Part shown: one piece after another, positions 4,784 through 16,081 of the stretch
Numbering within the stretch: position 1 is the stretch's first letter
Layout: the number at the start of each line of letters is the position of its first letter
NCBI GenBank assembly: GCA_003218885.1
Contig: QHOV01000087.1
Location: 1 to 39,539 of the forward strand
Reading direction: 5' to 3'
Length of the DNA: 39,539 nucleotides
From: Verrucomicrobiota bacterium
GTDB lineage: Bacteria; Verrucomicrobiota; Verrucomicrobiia; Chthoniobacterales; UBA10450
The notes under the pieces: model-generated
Told to the model about the DNA's origin: nothing
The model's database searches: none
What the model saw: the letters and a program-made list of their open reading frames with translations, nothing else
Translations under genes and position numbers: made by a program

Positions 4784-7162
4784 TCAATCTGCCCAGAGAA
4801 AGTGTTCCAAGCGCAGATGATTCAGCCGGGCCTTGGCTTCTTCGCTTCGGTTGCCACTCGCCGCGGCCAGGCGCTCATAAATCGCAGCTGCGGACTGCCA
4901 TTTCGAATCTTCCTCCAGTAGCCGCGCGGCATTAAATCCGGCCTTGTAGTACCAGAAGAGTTCACGTTGTCCGTATGGGCGCGTTTTGTCCTCCAGGATT
5001 TTGTAAAACGTCTCAAGCGCGCCGCCGCGGTCGTCTTTCTTTTCTAAACAGAGGGCCTTTTTGAATAGCGACTGGTTGCGCCAATGGCTGGGTTCGTTTT
5101 TGTCCAACGCGAGTTGGTCATAAATTTCGATGGCCTGCTGGTAATTCGCGCTGCCTCCCATCTCAGAAAAAATGTCGCCCTTGGCGCAAAGCGCTTCCCG
5201 TTTTTCAGACGGCGGAGCATCGCTTTTCAGCACTTCATCGTACAACGCAAGAGCATCTTTGGTCTTGCCAAGCTTGCGCTCGATGAGGGCTTGTTCATTG
5301 CGCGCGGACCACCGCAGCGCGCCGTTTTTTTGCACGATCTGATCGAACAGAACAATCGCCCGGTCCAGCGAATGCTCGCCCATGCTCGACATGGCCGATT
5401 CTGCCGCGAAAAAAAGTGCTCTTTCCGCGAGAGAGTCATCCGGATTCTGCTCCGTGATAATTTCAAACTGCGTCTGCGCGTTTGCGAAATCCTGGCGCCG
5501 ATAATAAAGCTCCGCTAATTTCATTCGAACTTCCGGAGCGAACGGTGAGAGGCCGTGTTGCTCCAGAAATCGCTTTGCGAGCTCAATGACTTTCGTCTCG
5601 TTTCCACCCGCTGATTCTTCTACCCAGATGCTGAGATAATCGGCGCGCTCCGCGGCCGCGGCGGTCGGCGCCGACTCGGCTGCGTGAGCGAGATCTCTGC
5701 GCGCATCATCCACGCGCGGCGGCGACGAGTGAAAGGCCAGCTCAGCCAGGGCAACCCATGCTTCCGACACGCGCGGATTCTTGGGAAAATCGCGAATGAA
5801 CTGCTGCAACGATACCTCCGCTTTTTTGTCGTCTTTTGCCGCCTGCATCAGGCCTTCCTCCAATCGTAAGTTGGCGCGAGCCTCATCGTCAACGCCCTGC
5901 TTCTCCAGTTCGCTGTAATTAACCAGAAAACGAGCGTAGATTTGTTCAAAAGACGCCGTCGCGGTGTCAAATCGCTTCGCCAAGTAGTGCGCTTGCGCAG
6001 ATAAAAAATCGATTCGAGCCAGCAAAGCCGGTTCGGGACGCAGCAGACGCGCCTCATCCAAGATCGCAATCGCCTCATCGAAATGCCGGTCTTCCACTTC
6101 AAATTGTGCGAACTCTAGAAAAGCAGGTGCGATCGCCGGCGATTTGATGCCGGCGCGTCGCAGGTCGGAAAATAGTTGCCGGGCTCGGTCACTCCGGCCG
6201 GCGCGAATTTCCAGCCGAGCGAGATACCATCGGGCAAATGTTCGCCGCGGCTCTTCCGGCCTGCGCACCCATTTCTCCAGTTCGTTGCGCGACGGTTTGT
6301 GCTCTGCTCGATACAACTCATCTAGTTTTGCGAACAGAAGAGACAGATCCGGGTCTGCCGGGTGAAGATCGACAAACTGCTCAATGACATCATCTCCGGC
6401 TTCCGGTGTTTTTAGTTGCAGGTGTGCTTCGGCGATGCCGAAGAGTGCCGCGATTAGCGTGGCATGAGCTGCTCCCTCCGGCCTTCTCAGAAGCGCTTGA
6501 AACATGCCGATTGCTCTCTCCGGGCGCTGCAAAATCAGCTCCAGGCGTCCGCGTAACAGCCGCCGTTCTCTCCGCTCGGCAACCGATCTCGGCTTCATTT
6601 CTTCCAAGAGACGCTGCGTATTAGCGGCGTCTGCCATTTCAATGGATAGCTCTGCCGCTCGTAACTGCGCTCGGATAGCCCATTCTTTGTCGTGGAGGAG
6701 AAGGTTGAGCTTTCTCAAAGCTTCTTCCCGCTTTCCTAAGGCGCGCAGCATCTCCGCGGTCCCAAAAGTGGCTGCTCCGCGAAACGGTGAACCTTCGTGC
6801 GTAGCCAATTCCTCATACAGCCGCAGCGCATCGGCCCATCGCTTCAGGCCGGCGAAGGCTTGGGCGCGCCAGAACCTTGCCCACGGGAGTTCGCGTACTC
6901 GACCGTCTGCCAACAAGACGAGGGTATCTTCCGGCTCCCTTGCAGCCACCTGAGCTTCGGCAAGTTTCTCGGCGACCGCGCGCCATTCGGCATCGGGCAG
7001 ATTCCTGTTTAGCAACGCCTGCAACCGCACAACCGCGACTTCCGGCACGCCTTCTGGAAGCGGCGCGCTCGCTTCGGCAATCTCAGCGGAAATGTCCGCA
7101 CGCGCGAGTGGCGTGAGCATGCCTATGAAACAGATGAATGCAATGTGTCTTATCAGGCTCAT
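4784..7162 (-). CDS. Secreted/periplasmic tetratricopeptide-repeat protein
   Basis: A 792-aa protein with an N-terminal signal peptide (MSLIRHIAFICFIGMLTPLARA, cut before DISAEIAEA), then almost entirely helical TPR-like repeats of about 34 residues: for example RFWRAQAFAGLKRWADALRLYEEL, LAELYYRRQDFANAQTQFEII and ALYDEVLKSDAPPSEKREALCAKGDIF. Such proteins act as protein-protein scaffolds in the envelope, for instance as outer-membrane assembly or gliding and secretion accessories. No catalytic domain is visible, so no specific role is claimed. The ATG at 7162 overlaps the uvrA stop (ATGA, 4 nt), indicating translational coupling to uvrA. A functional link to DNA repair is not implied by the sequence. 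The length and repeat pattern are intact throughout, with no sign of frameshift. Confidence 0.85.
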   Translation of the reverse strand: MSLIRHIAFICFIGMLTPLARADISAEIAEASAPLPEGVPEVAVVRLQALLNRNLPDAEWRAVAEKLAEAQVAAREPEDTLVLLADGRVRELPWARFWRAQAFAGLKRWADALRLYEELATHEGSPFRGAATFGTAEMLRALGKREEALRKLNLLLHDKEWAIRAQLRAAELSIEMADAANTQRLLEEMKPRSVAERRERRLLRGRLELILQRPERAIGMFQALLRRPEGAAHATLIAALFGIAEAHLQLKTPEAGDDVIEQFVDLHPADPDLSLLFAKLDELYRAEHKPSRNELEKWVRRPEEPRRTFARWYLARLEIRAGRSDRARQLFSDLRRAGIKSPAIAPAFLEFAQFEVEDRHFDEAIAILDEARLLRPEPALLARIDFLSAQAHYLAKRFDTATASFEQIYARFLVNYSELEKQGVDDEARANLRLEEGLMQAAKDDKKAEVSLQQFIRDFPKNPRVSEAWVALAELAFHSSPPRVDDARRDLAHAAESAPTAAAAERADYLSIWVEESAGGNETKVIELAKRFLEQHGLSPFAPEVRMKLAELYYRRQDFANAQTQFEIITEQNPDDSLAERALFFAAESAMSSMGEHSLDRAIVLFDQIVQKNGALRWSARNEQALIERKLGKTKDALALYDEVLKSDAPPSEKREALCAKGDIFSEMGGSANYQQAIEIYDQLALDKNEPSHWRNQSLFKKALCLEKKDDRGGALETFYKILEDKTRPYGQRELFWYYKAGFNAARLLEEDSKWQSAAAIYERLAAASGNRSEEAKARLNHLRLEHFLWAD

Positions 7163-10062
7163 CTTCTCTCCAGCATTGGCCGCAAATATCGCCCCGTATG
7201 GCTACTTGGAAGAGCTGCGATCTTCTCCGGCGTACCGGCTCCGACGAGATCGCCGCCACCTTCGCCACCCTCAGGTCCCAAATCGATGATCCAGTCGGCG
7301 CACTTGATCATCTCCAGATTATGTTCAATCACAATCACCGTATTACCTGCATTGCGCAGCTTCATTAACACTTGCAGCAGTTTCTCGATATCGGCGAAAT
7401 GCAATCCGGTTGTCGGCTCATCAAGAATGTAAAGGGTGCGCCCGGTTGCTTTTTTCGCAAGCTCGGTGGCGAGTTTCACCCGCTGCGCTTCTCCGCCGGA
7501 AAGAGTTGTCCCGGCCTGGCCAAGTCGCAGATAACCAAGACCGACATCCAGCAGTGAGTTTAGCTTTTCTGAGATGCTGGGCACATTGCGGAAAAAGCGC
7601 GCCGCCTCATCAACGGTTAGATCGAGCACGTCGGCAATATTCTTGCCTTTGTAAGTGATCTCGAGCGTCTCACGGTTGTAACGCTTGCCATGGCACACTT
7701 CGCATTCGACATACACGTCCGGTAAAAAGTGCATCTCGATTTTGATCAACCCGTCGCCTTCGCAGTTTTCGCAACGGCCGCCTTTGACGTTGAAACTGAA
7801 ACGGCCCGGGTCATACCCACGCACGCGCGCGGCCGGCAATTGCGCGAACAGCTCGCGTATCGGCGTAAAGGCGCCGGTGTAAGTGACGGGATTTGATCGC
7901 GGCGTTCGGCCAATCGCGCTTTGGTCAATCACGATAGCCTTGTCGATCTGTTCCACTCCTTGAAGCGCCCGATGAGTGCCCGGTTTTTCTTTCGCGTTGT
8001 AGAAACGCCGGAACAGCGCGCGCCGCAGAATGTCATCCACCAGAGTGGATTTGCCGCTGCCGGAGACACCGGTCACACAGGTGAGACAACCAAGAGGAAA
8101 GGATACCTCGATTTTCTTGAGGTTGTTCTCAGTTGCACCGACCACTGTAAGCCAGCCATCGGATCGTGGCTGAACGCGCTGCTTTGGAATCGCGATGCGC
8201 GCGCGTCCGGAAAGATAATCGCCGGTTAACGAATTCTTCGCGCGCAGGATGTCGTTAAGTTTCCCTTGTGCCACGATTTGGCCTCCGCGCGGACCTGCGC
8301 CCGGGCCAAGATCGATAATGTGATCGGCAGCCCGGATGGTTTCTTCGTCATGTTCAACTACAATGACCGAATTGCCCAAATCACGAAGACGCCACAGTGT
8401 CCCCAGCAATCGCGCATTGTCGCGCTGATGCAACCCGATGCTTGGTTCATCCAAAATGTAAAGAACCCCGGCAAGACCGGAGCCGATCTGTGTCGCCAAT
8501 CGGATTCGCTGTGCCTCGCCACCGGAAAGCGTCCCGCTTTGCCGATCGAGGGTGAGATAACCGAGCCCGACTTCAACAAGAAATTGCAAGCGTGATTGAA
8601 TTTCGCGTACCACGTCGGTCACAATGGTTTGCTGCTGCGCAGTCAGCTCCAGCGCAGCTATAAACCGGGCAGCCGCTTCGATAGTAAGCTCGCTGAATTG
8701 GTGAATGTTGAGTTCGCATGCGTGTCGATCTTTTATCGTCACGGCAAGAATTTCCGGTTTGAGCCTTGCTCCATTGCACACCTTGCACGGTTCGCGCGTC
8801 ATGAACGAGCGAATGCGATTACGGGTGAATTCGCTCTGGGTTTGCTCGTAAAGCCGCTGCATTTGCGGCACGAGTCCCTCGAATGGTTTCGCGACTCTTC
8901 GCTCGCCGCCGTCGTTGAAATTTATTTCAATCGCCGTCCCGTTCGTGCCGAAGTACAGCGCTTGTTTAAATTGCTCTGGCAAATCGCTAAAAGGAACGTC
9001 TTCATCGACGTGAAAGTGTTTCACCAGCGCCTTTTGCAAATGGCGGTAATATGCTTGCATCCGTTTTGTCCCGCGTCGCCACGGCGTGATTGCTCCTTCG
9101 GCCAGCGTTCTGCCAGGATCGGAAATCATTAGATCCGGATCGCAGACCAACTGCGTGCCAAGCCCATGGCAAGCTGGGCATGCTCCCAAATGGCTGTTGA
9201 AAGAAAAATATTTGGGAGTCAGCTCAGCTAACGTGAATCCAGTCTGCGCATTCCCGTAATCCGTAGAGTAGCGCCGTTCTTCCCACTCTTCTGATTCAAT
9301 GTTGGATGTTGGACGTTCGGCGTTAGGCGTTTTCTGCGTCGATCGCAAGATTGACAATTTGTTCCCGCCCCATTTGAGCGCAGTCTCAATTGAGTCTGTC
9401 AGGCGCACACGAATCCCATCGCGCATGACCAACCGATCGACTACCGCCTCGATAGTATGCCGCTTGTTCTTGTTGAGCCGGATCGGCTTGGGGCAATCCA
9501 GCTCGGTAATCTGACCGTCAATCCGCGCGCGGATGAATCCTTCGCGCTTGATCTTTTCGATCACATCCCGGAATTCGCCCGGTTGATTCTCGATCAGTGG
9601 CGCTAGCACAATAATTTTGGAACCCGGCTCGTATGCCAGGATCTGATCGACAATTTGCTGAGGCGTTTTGCGACTCAGCGGTTGTCCAGTTAGCGGATCG
9701 TGCGGCTGGCCAACAGCGGAAAAGAGGACCCGAAGATAATCGTAAATTTCAGTGGTGGTCGCGATTGTGGATCTCGGATTGGCACCGGCGCTGCGCTGTT
9801 CGATGGCGATCGCAGGAGAAAGCCCCTGGATAAAATCGACATTTGGCTTTTCCATCTGATCGAGGAATTGCCGCGCATACGCGGAGAGGCTTTCGACGTA
9901 TCGGCGTTGCCCCTCGGCATAAAGAGTATCGAAAGCCAGCGAGGACTTCCCCGAGCCACTCAGACCGGTGATGACCACCAGCTTCTCCCGTGGAATCTCC
10001 ACATGAAGATTCTTGAGATTGTGCTGGCGGGCACCACTAATTTTGATAACTTGCGCAGGCAT
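7159..10062 (-). CDS. uvrA: Excinuclease ABC subunit A
   Basis: DNA-damage recognition ATPase of nucleotide excision repair; the dimer loads UvrB onto lesions. The 967-aa protein has two ABC ATPase modules: Walker A GLSGSGKSSL at about 33-42 and GVSGSGKSTL at about 660, with signatures LSGGEAQRIRLA at about 516 and LSGGEAQRVKLA at about 857. Zinc sites are CKVCNGARLK at about 424 and the C-terminal finger GGRCENCEGDG...CEVCHG at about 765-800. The first zinc module is incomplete: CPACHGLG is present, but the partner CxxC expected just before it is replaced by DYGNAQTGF. Residues about 240-256 hold an extra peptide (KTPNAERPTSNIESEEWEE) that looks repeat-derived. The ATG start is followed by the conserved IKISGARQHNLKN. 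The 5' end and upstream region are duplicated elsewhere in the window. Confidence 0.97.
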   Translation of the reverse strand: MPAQVIKISGARQHNLKNLHVEIPREKLVVITGLSGSGKSSLAFDTLYAEGQRRYVESLSAYARQFLDQMEKPNVDFIQGLSPAIAIEQRSAGANPRSTIATTTEIYDYLRVLFSAVGQPHDPLTGQPLSRKTPQQIVDQILAYEPGSKIIVLAPLIENQPGEFRDVIEKIKREGFIRARIDGQITELDCPKPIRLNKNKRHTIEAVVDRLVMRDGIRVRLTDSIETALKWGGNKLSILRSTQKTPNAERPTSNIESEEWEERRYSTDYGNAQTGFTLAELTPKYFSFNSHLGACPACHGLGTQLVCDPDLMISDPGRTLAEGAITPWRRGTKRMQAYYRHLQKALVKHFHVDEDVPFSDLPEQFKQALYFGTNGTAIEINFNDGGERRVAKPFEGLVPQMQRLYEQTQSEFTRNRIRSFMTREPCKVCNGARLKPEILAVTIKDRHACELNIHQFSELTIEAAARFIAALELTAQQQTIVTDVVREIQSRLQFLVEVGLGYLTLDRQSGTLSGGEAQRIRLATQIGSGLAGVLYILDEPSIGLHQRDNARLLGTLWRLRDLGNSVIVVEHDEETIRAADHIIDLGPGAGPRGGQIVAQGKLNDILRAKNSLTGDYLSGRARIAIPKQRVQPRSDGWLTVVGATENNLKKIEVSFPLGCLTCVTGVSGSGKSTLVDDILRRALFRRFYNAKEKPGTHRALQGVEQIDKAIVIDQSAIGRTPRSNPVTYTGAFTPIRELFAQLPAARVRGYDPGRFSFNVKGGRCENCEGDGLIKIEMHFLPDVYVECEVCHGKRYNRETLEITYKGKNIADVLDLTVDEAARFFRNVPSISEKLNSLLDVGLGYLRLGQAGTTLSGGEAQRVKLATELAKKATGRTLYILDEPTTGLHFADIEKLLQVLMKLRNAGNTVIVIEHNLEMIKCADWIIDLGPEGGEGGGDLVGAGTPEKIAALPSSHTGRYLRPMLERR
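9295..9335. repeat. Dispersed-repeat fragment inserted in frame in uvrA
   Basis: The plus-strand text TTCAATGTTGGATGTTGGAC, continuing GTTCGGCGTTAGGCGTTTT, is built of near-repeating GTTGGATGTTGGACGTTCGGCGTT words. On the coding strand it reads KTPNAERPTSNIE. I recall similar peptides from intergenic repeats mistranslated in Verrucomicrobia, Planctomycetes and Lentisphaerae. It lies where UvrA families vary in length, just before the first zinc module, and keeps the frame open. Confidence 0.55.
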
Positions 10063-10125
10063 TCGGACCGTAAGCGTCGAACTTATTAGTCAAGCACAAC
10101 CGCGATTCTTCTCCAGAGAAATTGC
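9994..10125 (-). repeat. Direct repeat copy 1: uvrA 5' end plus upstream region
   Basis: This segment holds the first 22 codons or so of uvrA and 63 nt upstream of its ATG. It recurs, decayed, at 11888-12019 in the same orientation. By hand, the 63 nt upstream of the ATG match at 49 positions without gaps. The innermost conserved block (10090-10124, 35 nt, TCAAGCACAAC...AGAAATTG) also occurs at 13706-13740. Confidence 0.75.
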
Positions 10126-10186
10126 CCAGCTCAGAGTAAAACCCGGCAGTTTCATCTCGACGTAGGCTTTGCTATTTCCAGTGTCG

Positions 10187-11836
10187 ATGCGCAATCACAC
10201 TTCGCAGGTATTTCTGAGCTGGCTTCCAGCTCATCGCTTGGCAGACGGATTGGCAATTGCCAGTGCATGTCTCTTTATTTTTCTGGCGGCGTATCGAATT
10301 CAGCTTCCGGGTCTTTATTATGACGAAGTGGCCTTTATCAATGCTGCCCAAGGCGCTCCCGACAACACGTTCATTTACATGAGACTGGGACCCATGCCGT
10401 TCCTTATCATGCCGTATCTGGGAGCTTTAAAAGCATGGATCTATGCTCCCGTTTTCCACTTCTGCGGAGTGTCGCCCTTAACTATCCGTTTGCCGGCTAT
10501 TCTGCTCGCGGCGGTAACACTGCTGATTTTTTATCGCGCCATCCGAGATGCCCTTGGATTGATCTGGGCCGTCGTCGCCATTTGGATAATGGCGGTTGAC
10601 CCCGGCAATCTGTTTCCCAGCCGGCTGGATTGGGGCCCGACTGTGTTAATGCACTTCTTCCAAGCTGTTATTCTTGCTCTTTGGTTTAGTTATCGCAAGA
10701 ACCCGCAGCTGTGGAAGCCAGTTCTGATTTTGGGGTGCTTCGGACTGGGTTTTTTCGATAAGTTCAATTTCGTTTGGTTCCTGTTAGCTTTCACCGCTGG
10801 GATCATCTTGTGCTATCCGGAGAGCCTTCTGACTTTGTGGAGTTCCTTGCCGAGATTTGCCCGTTGGCTGGCAATGATTCTTATTCTGGTTGGATTTGGG
10901 GCGATACTGCACCTAATCTTGCCTCTTCTTTCCATTCAGCCAACCAAGATTCATACGGCGGGCCTCGAAGTTAAGTGGAGTGCGCTTCTAAGCACGTTAT
11001 CAGGCCGAGCAGTGGCTGGATTTATCTTTGGAAACGCCAGTGGGATAATTCCTGTTGTTCCCTTTTGGCTAATTGTTACCGATAGTTGTCTGGGACTCGC
11101 ATGCTTATTATCTGCGACGTCAAATTCTAGAGGATGTGAGAATCGAAAAAACGGTTTCTTTTGCCTCCTCATTGGTTTTCTGATCTTCATTCAGATCGCG
11201 ATCACGCCTCAAGCGGGAGGTCCGCACCACTATTCAATGATTTTTCCGTTGCCTCTCTTAGCCTTAGCCTTCCTAGCGAAGCCGTTGTATAGCCAAATCA
11301 CCGATAAGAACTTCCAGCGACTCGCTGCTGTCGTTTTCGGCTCCGCGGCGATGTGTATTTTTATCGTGAACGGCCACAACACTGCGACATATCTGTCTCA
11401 TTTTCGAACGAATCGGCATTACAACCCACGGTGGTCTCCAGAAATCTATTCTCTATCAGAGTATATTAACGAACATGGCTTCGAGGCGAACTGCATAATC
11501 AGCGCGGACTGGGGGCTGCACGATCAGCTTCACGCGCTTGCGCCCAAGACACTCCGGCGGCGGATGCGAGATTTTTGGCCCGTGTTCAAACAGCTTGGGC
11601 AGAAGACTCAACAAGAGCAAAACAAAACGCTACGCAGCATTTTTCCAGATGGTACAAATTTTGTGCTCACATTCGCCGCTTCGAAGGAAACATTCCCGGA
11701 AACGCGACAAAATTTTCTCGCTTCATTGGCAACCCACCCAGAGTTGAAATCTCGTTTGGCAAAGGAATTTTGGTTTAGAGACGAGAAGATTTACGAGCTT
11801 TACGAGGTAGTTCGCGCATCGCATAGTGTATGGTAG
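10187..11836 (+). CDS. GT39/ArnT-like integral-membrane glycosyltransferase
   Basis: Likely uses a polyprenyl-phosphate sugar as donor and transfers the sugar on the outer face of the cytoplasmic membrane (GT-C fold). It has about ten hydrophobic segments from residue 20 to about 385. The typical acidic motif follows the first of them (LPGLYYDEVAFINAAQGAP), and a soluble C-terminal domain of about 150 residues ends the protein. The track begins at TTG 10169; ATG 10187 (MRNHTSQVF) is chosen as the more usual codon, giving 549 aa. The gene is divergent from uvrA across 124 nt and lies between two direct copies of the uvrA 5' region. It is less GC-biased in wording than uvrA, consistent with acquisition. 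Donor and acceptor cannot be predicted. Confidence 0.75.
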   Translation: MRNHTSQVFLSWLPAHRLADGLAIASACLFIFLAAYRIQLPGLYYDEVAFINAAQGAPDNTFIYMRLGPMPFLIMPYLGALKAWIYAPVFHFCGVSPLTIRLPAILLAAVTLLIFYRAIRDALGLIWAVVAIWIMAVDPGNLFPSRLDWGPTVLMHFFQAVILALWFSYRKNPQLWKPVLILGCFGLGFFDKFNFVWFLLAFTAGIILCYPESLLTLWSSLPRFARWLAMILILVGFGAILHLILPLLSIQPTKIHTAGLEVKWSALLSTLSGRAVAGFIFGNASGIIPVVPFWLIVTDSCLGLACLLSATSNSRGCENRKNGFFCLLIGFLIFIQIAITPQAGGPHHYSMIFPLPLLALAFLAKPLYSQITDKNFQRLAAVVFGSAAMCIFIVNGHNTATYLSHFRTNRHYNPRWSPEIYSLSEYINEHGFEANCIISADWGLHDQLHALAPKTLRRRMRDFWPVFKQLGQKTQQEQNKTLRSIFPDGTNFVLTFAASKETFPETRQNFLASLATHPELKSRLAKEFWFRDEKIYELYEVVRASHSVW

Positions 11837-11887
11837 CGAAATTGAAACGTAGTTGCGGCGGTGATAATAGGCGGTTTCTGCGCGTCA

Positions 11888-12019
11888 AGCTCCGCATCGA
11901 GCGTTCTTCGGATTATGCTGGAGCGCACCGCCGGTTTTGGTAACTTGCGCAGGCATTGTGACCACAAACGTCGAACCTATAGGTCAAGTACAACCGTTCT
12001 TCTTCTCCAGCAAAATTGC
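11888..12019 (-). pseudogene. Decayed copy of the uvrA 5' end and its upstream region
   Basis: Read on the minus strand from the ATG at 11956 it gives MPAQVTKTGGALQHNPKNAR and then CGA-stop. The true UvrA start is MPAQVIKISGARQHNLKN, so the first 20 residues are clearly homologous before the reading breaks. Upstream of this ATG, 49 of 63 nt match the region upstream of uvrA with no gap, including the 35-nt block at 11984-12018. It lies in the 241-nt gap between the GT39-like gene and the GT2 gene. It is a remnant, not an active gene, and marks a past duplication around the glycosyltransferase. Confidence 0.75.
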
Positions 12020-12077
12020 ATTATCGAGACTCCGATAGGATGCTTGCCGCGGCGAACTTCCGTGCCTCTTGAAAGAG

Positions 12078-12776
12078 ATGAAAATCTCAATCGTAATCCC
12101 CTGCTACAATGAAAAGGACACAATCGAGAAGATCGTTGAGGCCGTTCGTAACGCACCCTTGAAGAGCAGAGAGATCATTGTGGTAGACGATTGTTCCCAA
12201 GACGGGACGCAGACTCTGCTCCAGGAGAAGGTTTCGCAGCTGGTTGATCGCGTTATTTATCATCCGGTAAATCGGGGCAAGGGAGCGGCCCTGCGCAGCG
12301 GCTTCGCAGCCGCGACTGGCGATTTTATTCTAGTACAGGACGCCGATCTGGAATACAGCCCCGAAGATTATCCAGTGCTTCTGGAGCCGCTTATAGCAGG
12401 CAAGGCAGACGCGGTCTTTGGATCCCGGTTCATGGGCGGGCGACCACATCGCGTACTCTTTTTCTGGCACATGGTCGGTAATAAGTTTTTGACGCTGCTC
12501 TCCAATATGTTCACTAATATTAATCTCACCGACATGGAAACAGGCTACAAGGCCTTTAGAGCTCCTCTTATCAAATCTATTCACATAGAAGAAGATCGGT
12601 TTGGCGTTGAGCCGGAAATCATCGCCAAACTCGCCCGCACAGGCTGTAGAATTTACGAAGTGGGGATCTCATACAGCGGACGCACCTATGCAGAGGGCAA
12701 GAAAATCAATTGGAAGGACGGCGTAAGGGCCATTTACGCGATCTTCAAATACAACCTGGAGCGCCGCAGAGTATGA
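12078..12776 (+). CDS. Family 2 glycosyltransferase, DPM1/polyprenyl-phosphate sugar synthase-like
   Basis: Probably transfers a hexose from a nucleotide sugar to a polyprenyl phosphate, making the lipid-linked donor used by the membrane GT-C enzymes nearby. The 232-aa GT-A fold protein has SIVIPCYNEKDTIEKIV at the N-terminus, VVDDCSQDGT, the DXD-type motif LVQDADLEYSPEDY, GSRFMGG, and NLTDMETGYKAFR with the (E/D)xxTGYK-like acceptor motif. No C-terminal membrane helices are present, as in the DPM1 soluble type. The TTG at 12069 is rejected in favour of ATG 12078, which begins directly at the fold and has GAAAGAG just upstream. Its stop overlaps the ATG of a short remnant ORF (ATGA), implying that it was once coupled to a downstream gene. 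Confidence 0.88.
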   Translation: MKISIVIPCYNEKDTIEKIVEAVRNAPLKSREIIVVDDCSQDGTQTLLQEKVSQLVDRVIYHPVNRGKGAALRSGFAAATGDFILVQDADLEYSPEDYPVLLEPLIAGKADAVFGSRFMGGRPHRVLFFWHMVGNKFLTLLSNMFTNINLTDMETGYKAFRAPLIKSIHIEEDRFGVEPEIIAKLARTGCRIYEVGISYSGRTYAEGKKINWKDGVRAIYAIFKYNLERRRV

Positions 12777-12904
12777 AGGAAGCTACTGTGCAAAAGACCG
12801 AAAGACGGTGGCCTTTCCCAGACATGTCTCGCTGGTGCGGCGCGGCTTGGATCAACCGCAAGGGATGTTATTTAAAAGCTGCTAAGCCGGCGTTATTCCA
12901 TTGA
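12773..12904 (+). pseudogene. Remnant of the N-terminus of a SAM/GT2 fusion gene
   Basis: A 43-codon ORF whose ATG overlaps the GT2 stop (ATGA). Its end, AAWINRKGCYLKAAKPALFH, parallels QSWINRNRYYYELLNRLL near residue 50 of the intact SAM/GT2 protein encoded from 13769. The DNA agrees clearly: GGATCAACCGCAA is identical, and AGCTGCTAA.CCGG follows after a 1-nt length difference. It ends inside the 3' end of the oppositely oriented methyltransferase. The simplest view is a truncated duplicate of the start of the SAM/GT2 gene, left behind when the methyltransferase cassette was placed in between. Homology rests on a short stretch, so confidence is moderate. Confidence 0.55.
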
Positions 12905-13672
12905 CCGTCGAGCATGCCAGCCGCTGGGGCCGTGTTCGGTGCGCAACTTGCGCGCGACAACGATTATTCGGGCCATATGCTGGGCCTTGCTCCCGCTCGG
13001 CAGAGCCGCTTTCTTGACTTCCTGGACATCAGTGAATCCGATCAGTTCCAGATTCTTTTTCAGGACCGGCGTGCTCAGCGCCCAAAAATTGGTCGTATCG
13101 TTATTTTGTCCGTACATAAAATAACAGATATTGGGATCCTCAGGATGATCATAGACCTGAGTCTCGAGGGCGATGTAACCGCCTAGTTTCAGGTTCTCGA
13201 AACTTCGCTGGAGCGACAGCAACGGATTGGGGAGATGATACAACGTGCCAAAATGAAGGATGACATCGAACTCGTCGGGACGGCTGAATGTTTCCGCACT
13301 GGCCAGCTCAAACTCACACGAGACGCCTGCCAGCACAGCAAGAAAACGCGCGGCCTCGACATGACGCGGGACAATATCGATGCCTGTGGCCGAAAATTGG
13401 TATTCCAACGCGGCATGAATCGAGTTGTAACCCGCATTGCAGCCGATATCCAGCAGGCGGCCGCCTGCAAGTTCTCCGAGTGGGACTACCGAGGCGGCAT
13501 CCCTGAATTTTTTCAAGGGCGATTCGGAAAACAGCGTAAGCCGGGCGCAATTGAGTGTCGAAACCCCATTATCAAAGTCCAGGCGATGGTTCCACGGCTC
13601 CCAAAGCCGCAGCTTTTCCTGCAACGCCTGAGGCGAGAGCGACGTGTGCAGCGTGAGAAAATCGGCTTCCAT
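12893..13672 (-). CDS. Class I SAM-dependent methyltransferase (CmoB/DUF1698-like)
   Basis: A 259-aa Rossmann methyltransferase with motif I LLDIGCNAGYNSIHAAL, an acidic residue ending strand 2 (ATGIDIVPRHVEAARF), FDVILHFGTLYHLPNPLLSL as motif IV/post, and LKLGGYIALETQVYD. The layout resembles the DUF1698/CmoB-like group often found in polysaccharide clusters. The substrate is unknown; a sugar hydroxyl or carboxyl in the local glycan is a guess from context. The start is well supported: ATG 13672 is preceded by GGAGG at 5-nt spacing. It is the only minus-strand gene between 10187 and 17600. A block homologous to the uvrA upstream region precedes it, and a decayed duplicate of its right-hand neighbour's start follows it, so it looks like an inserted cassette. 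Confidence 0.85.
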   Translation of the reverse strand: MEADFLTLHTSLSPQALQEKLRLWEPWNHRLDFDNGVSTLNCARLTLFSESPLKKFRDAASVVPLGELAGGRLLDIGCNAGYNSIHAALEYQFSATGIDIVPRHVEAARFLAVLAGVSCEFELASAETFSRPDEFDVILHFGTLYHLPNPLLSLQRSFENLKLGGYIALETQVYDHPEDPNICYFMYGQNNDTTNFWALSTPVLKKNLELIGFTDVQEVKKAALPSGSKAQHMARIIVVARKLRTEHGPSGWHARRSME

Positions 13673-13705
13673 TGCAACCTCCGTAAGGGCTGGCGCGAGG
13701 GAGAC

Positions 13706-13740
13706 TCAAGCACAACGATTCTTTTCCTCCAGCGAAATTG
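13706..13740. repeat. Third copy of the 35-nt upstream block
   Basis: TCAAGCACAACGATTCTTTT continues with CCTCCAGCGAAATTG. The length is 35 nt, the same as the blocks at 10090-10124 and 11984-12018. By hand, ungapped identity is 27/35 to copy 1 and 29/35 to copy 2. It sits 34 nt upstream of the methyltransferase ATG, against 28 nt in the other two copies, and also about 30 nt before the plus-strand SAM/GT2 gene. Each copy thus lies in a divergent gene gap, or in what was once one. Confidence 0.6.
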
Positions 13741-13768
13741 TGTTACTTGAATCAAATCTGCGATTAAG

Positions 13769-15283
13769 ATGGAACCGACAATGGCAGTTATGGAAGCTGT
13801 GTTGAACGAGCGCGAGACCAGCAGAGAGGTCTGGGGACCGGCCGCGCTCGATGAAAGGCGCGAGCGAACGCGGGATCATCTGGCAAAAATTGCCGCTCGA
13901 CGCCAGAGCTGGATCAACCGCAACAGGTACTACTATGAGCTGCTAAACCGGCTTCTTCGTTTTTTGGTGGAACCGCAGAAGAAGGTCCTCTCTGTTCGCT
14001 GCGATACCGGCAACGTTTTGGCTGCCGTCAGGCCACGCAACGGCAAAGGTATCGATATCTGCGCCGAGATTGTGGAAATCGCACAGCAACGAAATCCGCC
14101 CTTCGAATTCGCGGTGGCTTTTCCGGACAAAGAGGAGTTTCAGCAGGCTTTCAAGCCAGACGAGAAATTCGATTACATCCTCTTTAACGATATCGGCGAT
14201 ACGGTGGATGTGCTTCAAGCTCTACGCAATTTGACGCCGCTTTGCCAGAGACATACTCGTGTGTTAATAACAACTTACAACCATCTTTGGGAGCCGCTCG
14301 TTACCTTTGCCGAATGGGTCGGGATGAAGGTGCCGCGCACCGAGCAGAACTGGCTTTCTACCGCTGATATCCGAAATCTGTTGAAGCTCGCCGGTTTTGA
14401 AGCTCTCGAGACACATCGAATCGTCCTTTTACCGAAATATTTGCCGTTGCTATCTGGTTTCTTTAATCGTTTTTGTGCGCGCCTGCCGTTTCTGAGCAAA
14501 CTTTGCATGACGCAGGTGGTCCTGGCGCGAATGGTGCCGCCGTCAGTTGAGTTGAAAGAACTTTCCATATCAGTCGTCATTCCTTGTAAAAATGAGAAAG
14601 GAAATGTGGAGGATGCCGCTCGCCGCATTCCGTCTCTCGCGGGCAAGACAGAGATAATTTTCTGTGACGATCAATCGACCGATGGCACCGCTGAAGAGGT
14701 GTTGCGGGTGCAGTCGCTCTATCCGAACAAGGATATTCACCTTGAGCACGGGCCGGGAGTTTGCAAGTCGCGAAACGTCTGGACCGGTTTCAACGCAGCG
14801 TCAGGCGATATTTTAATGATCCTCGATGCCGACCTGACGACCATTCCCGAAGAGCTGCCCTACTTCATCGATGTTATGGTTTCGGGGCAGGCGGAATTTG
14901 TCAACGGATCGCGCCTGATCTATCCCGTGCCAAAAGGAGCAATGAACGGAGCAAACATGCTGGGCAACAAATTTTTCAGCCTCGCTTTTACCTATCTGCT
15001 CGGGCAGCGAGTAAAAGACACTCTATGCGGCACAAAAGTCCTCTGGAGAAGCGACTGGGAGCGGATTAAGCCAATGCTCGGAAGTTGGGGAACCGAAGAC
15101 CGATGGGGAGACTATGAACTGTTATTTGGTGCCGCAAAGTTGAACCTTAAAATTCTGGACTTGCCGGTTCACTACCAGGAACGCATTTACGGTTCCACGA
15201 AGATGACCAAGGTCTTTCGGAACGGACTTGTCATGCTGAAGATGTGCTGGCATGGATTTCTGAAATTAAGACTCGGCTACTAA
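13769..15283 (+). CDS. Bifunctional SAM-methyltransferase-like / family 2 glycosyltransferase
   Basis: A 504-aa fusion. Residues about 35-240 form a methyltransferase-like Rossmann domain with WINRNRYYYELLNRLLRFL leading into VLSVRCDTGNVLAAVRP. Motif I is degenerate (RCDTG where active enzymes usually show GCGTG), so methyl transfer may be lost or altered. Residues about 265-490 form a GT2 domain: SISVVIPCKNEKGNVEDAA, FCDDQSTDGT, DXD-like MILDADLTTIPEELPYF, NGSRL, and a C-terminal LCGTKVLWRSDW segment with RWGDYELLFGA. A short hydrophobic tail may touch the membrane. The ATG at 13769 is used; ATGs at 13781 and 13790 are alternatives and the ribosome-binding site is weak. It likely takes part in lipid-linked sugar assembly together with the upstream DPM1-like enzyme. 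Confidence 0.85.
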   Translation: MEPTMAVMEAVLNERETSREVWGPAALDERRERTRDHLAKIAARRQSWINRNRYYYELLNRLLRFLVEPQKKVLSVRCDTGNVLAAVRPRNGKGIDICAEIVEIAQQRNPPFEFAVAFPDKEEFQQAFKPDEKFDYILFNDIGDTVDVLQALRNLTPLCQRHTRVLITTYNHLWEPLVTFAEWVGMKVPRTEQNWLSTADIRNLLKLAGFEALETHRIVLLPKYLPLLSGFFNRFCARLPFLSKLCMTQVVLARMVPPSVELKELSISVVIPCKNEKGNVEDAARRIPSLAGKTEIIFCDDQSTDGTAEEVLRVQSLYPNKDIHLEHGPGVCKSRNVWTGFNAASGDILMILDADLTTIPEELPYFIDVMVSGQAEFVNGSRLIYPVPKGAMNGANMLGNKFFSLAFTYLLGQRVKDTLCGTKVLWRSDWERIKPMLGSWGTEDRWGDYELLFGAAKLNLKILDLPVHYQERIYGSTKMTKVFRNGLVMLKMCWHGFLKLRLGY

Positions 15284-15319
15284 CTCGCTAACTCAAATTT
15301 TCGGCCTGGCGACCAACGC

Positions 15320-16081
15320 ATGGGAGTTTCAAATTCGCGGTCATCTGAAAATTTTCTAATGCAAGAGCGCATTGCTAAAGAAATTCAACACGGCCGCTTC
15401 CTGGCCGAGCATGGGGCGGGCGAGATTTGGAATTGGGAGAGTCCAGCTGGTAAACTGCGCTGGGCGCGCCGGGTCAAGATGCTCAGCAGCCATCTCGGGC
15501 CGGGAATGAGCGTGCTCGAGTTGGGATGTGGTACTGGCTATTTCACTCGGGAACTGGCGCGCTCCGGGGCGGACGTTGTTGCGATTGACGTCTCACCTGA
15601 GCTTCTGGAAATCGCGACGGCGAATTCTTCTGCGCCAAATATTCGTTATGAAATCCAGAACGCCTACGCACTGAGCTATCCTGATGGCGTATTTGATTCC
15701 GTTGTGGGCAGCTCCGTTTTACATCACCTCGAAATCGAAGAGGCACTACGCGAGATTTACCGGGTGTTGCAAGCTGGCGGTGCGATTTACTTTACAGAGC
15801 CAAACATGCTGAATCCACAGATCGCCATACAAAAAAATGTGCCGTGTGTGAAGCGGAGGCTGGGCGATTCACCGGATGAGACCGCATTCTTCCGGTGGCC
15901 GCTCCGGCGCCTGCTCGAACAAACAGGCTATCGTGACGTTCGAATCGATCCTTTTGATTTCCTACACCCCCAAACGCCGGCTTCTCTAGTCGATCGATTG
16001 GACGCCCTTGGCCGATTTCTCGAAAACGTGCCGGTCATCTCGGAGTTTGCTGGCTCGCTGTATATCCGTGCAATCAAATGA
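15320..16081 (+). CDS. Class I SAM-dependent methyltransferase
   Basis: A 253-aa methyltransferase of the Methyltransf_11/25 type. It shows a textbook motif I VLELGCGTGYFTRELARSG, acidic VVAIDVSPELLEIA, a motif at VFDSVVGSSVLHHLEIEEAL and VLQAGGAIYFTEPNM. The acceptor is unknown. The gene follows the SAM/GT2 fusion by 36 nt and overlaps the next methyltransferase by 4 nt (ATGA), so it belongs to a plus-strand operon. ATG 15320 is used; ATG 15359 (MQERIAKE) would remove 13 residues that look unstructured and is equally possible. Confidence 0.87.
   Translation: MGVSNSRSSENFLMQERIAKEIQHGRFLAEHGAGEIWNWESPAGKLRWARRVKMLSSHLGPGMSVLELGCGTGYFTRELARSGADVVAIDVSPELLEIATANSSAPNIRYEIQNAYALSYPDGVFDSVVGSSVLHHLEIEEALREIYRVLQAGGAIYFTEPNMLNPQIAIQKNVPCVKRRLGDSPDETAFFRWPLRRLLEQTGYRDVRIDPFDFLHPQTPASLVDRLDALGRFLENVPVISEFAGSLYIRAIK

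Follow-up and report, generated by a model that had tools for sequence, protein, structure and literature searches.

The minimal mobile elements of Neisseria place different genes at the same position next to a conserved gene and exchange them by homologous recombination, and integrative elements such as SXT, found in prfC, target the 5' ends of genes. The term minimal mobile elements is used in PMC8627216. The T6SS effector-immunity arrays of Vibrio cholerae were described as successive insertions at a conserved anchor, with homology-facilitated illegitimate recombination (HFIR) proposed as their origin (Kirchberger et al. 2017, PMC5361080). In PMC3240628, which also covers HFIR itself, most recombinants had 109-950 bp of the anchor gene duplicated by a single crossover of trimmed, recircularised DNA.

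We analyzed a 39,539-nucleotide stretch of a Verrucomicrobiota genome (contig QHOV01000087.1, hereafter the window) in which partial copies of the start of uvrA lie among glycan genes upstream of uvrA itself. As in the V. cholerae T6SS arrays, older genes are pushed outward, truncated pieces are left and relic-flanked genes appear to have spread later by homologous recombination. What is left behind in V. cholerae are immunity genes and the 3' ends of effectors; at uvrA it is the promoter with the first codons of a housekeeping gene for DNA repair, and glycan genes form the cargo, unlike in the T6SS arrays. One homologous end combined with one illegitimate end is the feature shared with HFIR, although laboratory HFIR usually deletes recipient DNA and uses 3-10 bp of microhomology, while here the duplication is retained and junction microhomology is unreadable from these sequences. 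The single crossover of trimmed, circularised DNA similarly duplicates an anchor-gene fragment flanking the insert. Minimal mobile elements are alike in placing alternative genes beside a conserved gene through homologous recombination, but they have conserved genes on both sides; at uvrA only one side is conserved, the outer neighbour being phoB, c4, c7, c15 or c40, and partial anchor copies mark each gain. A displaced 5' end with a regenerated gene is also produced by 5'-end integrative elements such as SXT; in contrast to these, our scans revealed no recombinase, and the crossover point was not fixed. Among the papers searched, none relevant to uvrA as a hotspot of insertion was found.

Repeated uvrA 5' ends in the window

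The anchor gene uvrA (967 aa; 7159-10062, minus strand) was delimited from its open reading frame and from relatives. An alignment of 37 loci showed its promoter block (-62 to -1; 10063-10124, minus strand) to be conserved across the genus, while upstream of -62 each genome differs. The functional 5' end of uvrA, copy A (10010-10125, minus strand), aligned without gaps to copy B (11904-12019, minus strand) at 92 of 116 positions (79%, E 7e-25). Both copies lie on the same strand in direct orientation, and their local alignment score of 114, against a maximum of 30 among 1000 shuffles, confirmed the same-strand repeat reported in a preliminary description of this DNA. The counts given there were exact, with 49 of the 63 positions upstream of copy B matching the uvrA upstream sequence and the copy reading MPAQVTKTGGALQHNPKN; from its ATG at 11956, copy B translates as MPAQVTKTGGALQHNPKNARCGA, followed by a stop. 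A nucleotide profile made from the 5' ends of 36 genuine uvrA genes matched copy B over 11861-12017, to about +97 of uvrA (98.5 bits, E 1.4e-28), so that the repeat is nearer 157 nt than 116 nt; the repeat described earlier is real. We therefore delimit copy B, from the alignment and profile, as a decaying displaced uvrA 5' end running from -62 to about +97 (11861-12019, minus strand).

Between the two copies lies c15 (10169-11836, plus strand; 555 aa), an inserted glycosyltransferase gene of the PMT_2 family (PF13231, GT39-like) identified from relatives and Pfam, which is divergent from uvrA and is missing in L043 and L096. On its outer side, copy B adjoins the former uvrA neighbour c7 (12069-12776, plus strand), a GT2 gene recognized from relatives and a family scan that still adjoins uvrA in L043, L096, L051, L061 and L127. 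Further out, relatives identify an earlier insertion, the methyltransferase gene c24 (12893-13672, minus strand), and a still older neighbour, the methyltransferase-GT2 gene c4 (13769-15283, plus strand). Between c4 and c24, with c24 just downstream of it, we found a third copy, C (13706-13740, minus strand), which corresponds by alignment and profile to the uvrA promoter from -62 to -28 (35-38 nt, 82-83% identity) and is the oldest relic; its junction is the same in L096 and L064. Read in the orientation of uvrA, the order in the window is thus c4, relic C, c24, c7, relic B, c15, uvrA.

A search of the window's own genome found strong repeat matches confined to the uvrA neighbourhood. A 260 kb sample of the genome showed no evident relic of this kind, with the 5' end of one gene flanking another, apart from a few short unexplained repeats. 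Outside the uvrA region, L153 (G000:C192) carries an 89 nt direct repeat of 79% identity (2045-2133 and 2666-2754) in a part with no long ORFs.

Empty sites and spread of relics in the genus

The genus consists of Udaeobacter-like soil Verrucomicrobia, of which 35 genomes, all metagenome assemblies, were examined; 16 of the 35 contained at least one relic. Each relic comprises the uvrA promoter block from -62 and coding sequence of at most about 160 nt, lies upstream of uvrA on the uvrA strand, and sits between uvrA and its ex-neighbour at a site of gene insertion. In L043, with 98% UvrA identity across the first 372 residues, the order is c4-c7-uvrA without c24, c15 or a relic, and in L096 it is c4-relic-c24-c7-uvrA. 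These gene orders represent empty sites for the c24 and c15 insertions. The comparison with relatives thus found uvrA both with and without the intervening gene, supporting the earlier proposals that this gene is an insertion and that the copy beyond it is a displaced uvrA 5' end. The c7/relic/c15 junction is homologous in L056, with L059 alike, which places the insertion before the window species; either L043 lost the insertion or the window species received it as a block.

In 12 loci, uvrA lies beside phoB of a phoB-phoR-pst cluster (names assigned from sequence to what we take to be a response regulator and a histidine kinase). This arrangement looks ancestral, and none of the 12 has a relic; at least one occurs in 16 of the 29 remaining loci whose upstream sequence is long enough. 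The order is phoB-relic-c7-uvrA in L127 and phoB-relic-c36-uvrA in L063 and L072, indicating insertion between the ancestral neighbour and uvrA. Three relics were observed in L064 and two in L125. The insertion beside uvrA stands, but it has recurred within the genus, at about 13 distinct junctions, and is not the single event first envisaged. Relics in L126 and L130 are on contigs without uvrA, which counts against their being displaced uvrA 5' ends and means that the link to uvrA was not always kept, or not always assembled. The recurrence of relics across independent assemblies argues against an assembly artefact.

Two peculiarities of individual assemblies were also seen. The uvrA start in L131 and L053 (near L131 354-420, G030:C51) is without about 45 nt after ATGCCT; the native start may be broken, another start may be used, or the assembly may have collapsed. 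G028 carries two different uvrA contigs (L123 and L124) and is probably a mixed assembly.

Junctions, cargo and later exchange

Manual grouping placed the sequences that follow the relics in about 13 distinct groups. The 3' breakpoints were at about -28, +5, +46 to +48 (three), +52 to +61 (three), +97 to +105 (three), +140 and +158, while the 5' limit almost always coincided with the edge, at -62, of the uvrA promoter block shared by the genus. This variation from -28 to +158 does not fit a fixed att site, nor does it support the insertion with a long duplication that had been suggested, if that is taken as a target duplication of a fixed kind. Transposition with a short, fixed-length target-site duplication was considered separately and does not agree with the variable relic length (67-231 nt). 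The breakpoint clusters at +46 to +48 and +97 to +105 are the best remaining argument for site preference, and a small inverted repeat, GTGC-N6-GCAC, lies in uvrA (10021-10034; +28 to +41) just before the first of these clusters.

The inserted genes encode glycosyltransferases, methyltransferases, a GDP-mannose dehydratase and aminotransferases, and some of their products match no Pfam family. The 25 commonest of the 33 Pfam families in 67 relic-bracketed ORFs (the remaining eight families having a single member each) included no integrase or transposase, and 20 single scans revealed none either; ten less clear ORFs of the bracketed set were scanned singly. The finding for these inserted genes agrees with the earlier proposal that no transposase was involved.

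Comparison of the window with L043 revealed a mosaic with a breakpoint at the uvrA start. The uvrA coding sequence is 91-100% identical from the first codons, while the promoter is 73%, c7 is 85% and c6, beyond, is 98% identical; at the uvrA start the identity reaches 96%, up from the 73% of the promoter. In other close pairs the promoter is at least as similar as the coding sequence. The jump indicates an exchange anchored in uvrA, and the founding insertion event was not necessarily that one. No clear uvrA mosaic was seen in L127.

One relic junction was observed in different contexts: the relic/c9 junction follows c40 in L125 and c4 in L056 and L059. Its spacer is homologous between the contexts (score 55, shuffle maximum 28) whereas the left flanks are unrelated (13, shuffle maximum 27); L054 and L125 share a common left flank (61, shuffle maximum 30). 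The relic-flanked gene has therefore changed its left neighbour, which suggests, from sequence comparison, that such genes were later moved by ordinary homologous recombination. Remnants of the 5' end of c4 were also found in L051 (around c35; -912 to -772 relative to the uvrA ATG) and in L059, and a remnant of the 5' end of c7 in L046 (around c29; -2458 to -2360), making uvrA the main anchor but not the sole one. In L058, a 64 nt direct repeat of 86% identity (-3165 to -3102 and -1893 to -1830 from the uvrA ATG) brackets c24 beside a uvrA relic.

In the window, in L064 and in L125 the degree of decay among relics agrees with outward stacking, but in L056 and L059 it does not: there the inner relic is the more decayed of the two, which breaks a simple last-in order unless an imported block already carried an old relic. 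Relics were nearer to the uvrA of other species than to their own in L046, L063 and L071 but not in L056 or for the inner relic of L064, and we did not take this ranking of own against other uvrA, with its mixed support, as proof.

Origin of the relics and its alternatives

We think it probable, though well short of certain, that the copies are 5' ends of uvrA displaced when foreign DNA entered beside the gene with uvrA homology as the anchor. For the order neighbour, promoter, first uvrA codons, cargo, promoter, uvrA, with a fixed site and a tandem duplication set aside, the remaining route is that the incoming DNA carried a promoter and a uvrA start of its own; both ways of joining it, described next, are documented in the laboratory. 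The foreign DNA, presumably taken up by transformation, would bring a glycan gene together with the donor's uvrA promoter and start. In HFIR, one end would pair with the recipient uvrA and the other would join illegitimately within its first 0-160 nt; alternatively, an end-trimmed fragment may circularise and integrate by a single crossover. By either route uvrA would be rebuilt with the donor promoter and start, and the resident promoter and first codons would remain as a relic beside the divergent gene that was previously the neighbour. Repeated rounds would stack genes outward from uvrA with relics as their boundaries, and a gene between a relic and uvrA, having uvrA homology on both sides, could then be moved by ordinary homologous recombination. 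Non-homologous junctions that differ between events, as expected of HFIR, were observed (about 13, from -28 to +158). Short relics of 67-230 nt are unexpected for a single crossover unless long repeats were lost again. Natural competence is hinted at by ComEC, matched in 17 of 20 genomes including this one, a protein that also has matches in most control genomes.

The regenerated start and displaced original are equally the hallmark of 5'-end integration, and three unrelated junctions at +46 to +48, just after the inverted repeat, would suit an element that carried a uvrA promoter and start of its own, integrated through a core within the first codons and has since lost its integrase, the relics being decayed att sites. 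We consider such site-specific integration unlikely, since the junctions range from -28 to +158 with no single crossover site, the bracketed ORFs lack a recombinase among the families listed, and the other anchors, c4 and c7, show the same remnants. Somewhat harder to accept is that the copies are promoter donations, kept to drive neighbouring glycan genes, and not by-products of insertion. Beside c24 and c4 the -62 to -28 block has outlasted the rest, and the spacer is 92-95% conserved where c24 is 88-96%, which fits reuse of the promoter by the neighbour without proving it. A consensus scan, however, detected no sigma-70-like site, the coding sequence in most relics is decaying and contains frameshifts and stops, and promoter spread would explain the retention of the copies but not their origin.

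Direct orientation and proximity would also result if the uvrA start and its neighbour had been duplicated in tandem, with decay and the gain of an unrelated gene afterwards, and merodiploid formation by transformation is known (PMC3784515). This origin, the other one put forward in the preliminary description, we regard as very improbable: tblastn of uvrA recovered first codons only, with no remnant beyond codon 53, there is no second copy of a neighbour gene, and relics occur only where new genes are present (0 of 12 phoB-adjacent loci). Least credible by far is a dispersed repeat or MITE-like element that includes the uvrA start by chance; it would account for several copies per locus, but the own genome has no further copy, the left edge is the promoter edge and the copy contains uvrA codons.

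An inverted uvrA paralogue 7-10 kb upstream of uvrA in several Spartobacteria (L073, L074, L077, L078, L084, L091) is a real gene and was not counted as a relic. In L152 (G000:C170), a reading frame of about 1960 aa (10131-16013, plus strand) contains internal repeats and matches UvrA; it is probably a double-length UvrA paralogue, a form known from chlamydiae.

Returning to displacement by foreign DNA, the relics might further act as a recombinase-free cassette system, an integron-like array founded on a housekeeping gene, in which each relic-flanked glycan gene, with identical homology on its two sides, would be moved from genome to genome by RecA alone into any uvrA promoter; we offer this as a tentative possibility with the odds against it.

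The junctions provide natural evidence for homology-anchored illegitimate insertion, a process known mainly from laboratory transformations and the Vibrio T6SS arrays. Surface-glycan genes turn over fast and mostly scar-free, while at uvrA every gain leaves part of a conserved gene behind. The uvrA neighbourhood is thus a readable record of sugar-coat gene gains without a detectable transposase, showing in what order, in which direction and by what joining mechanism genes were acquired across an uncultured, abundant soil genus.
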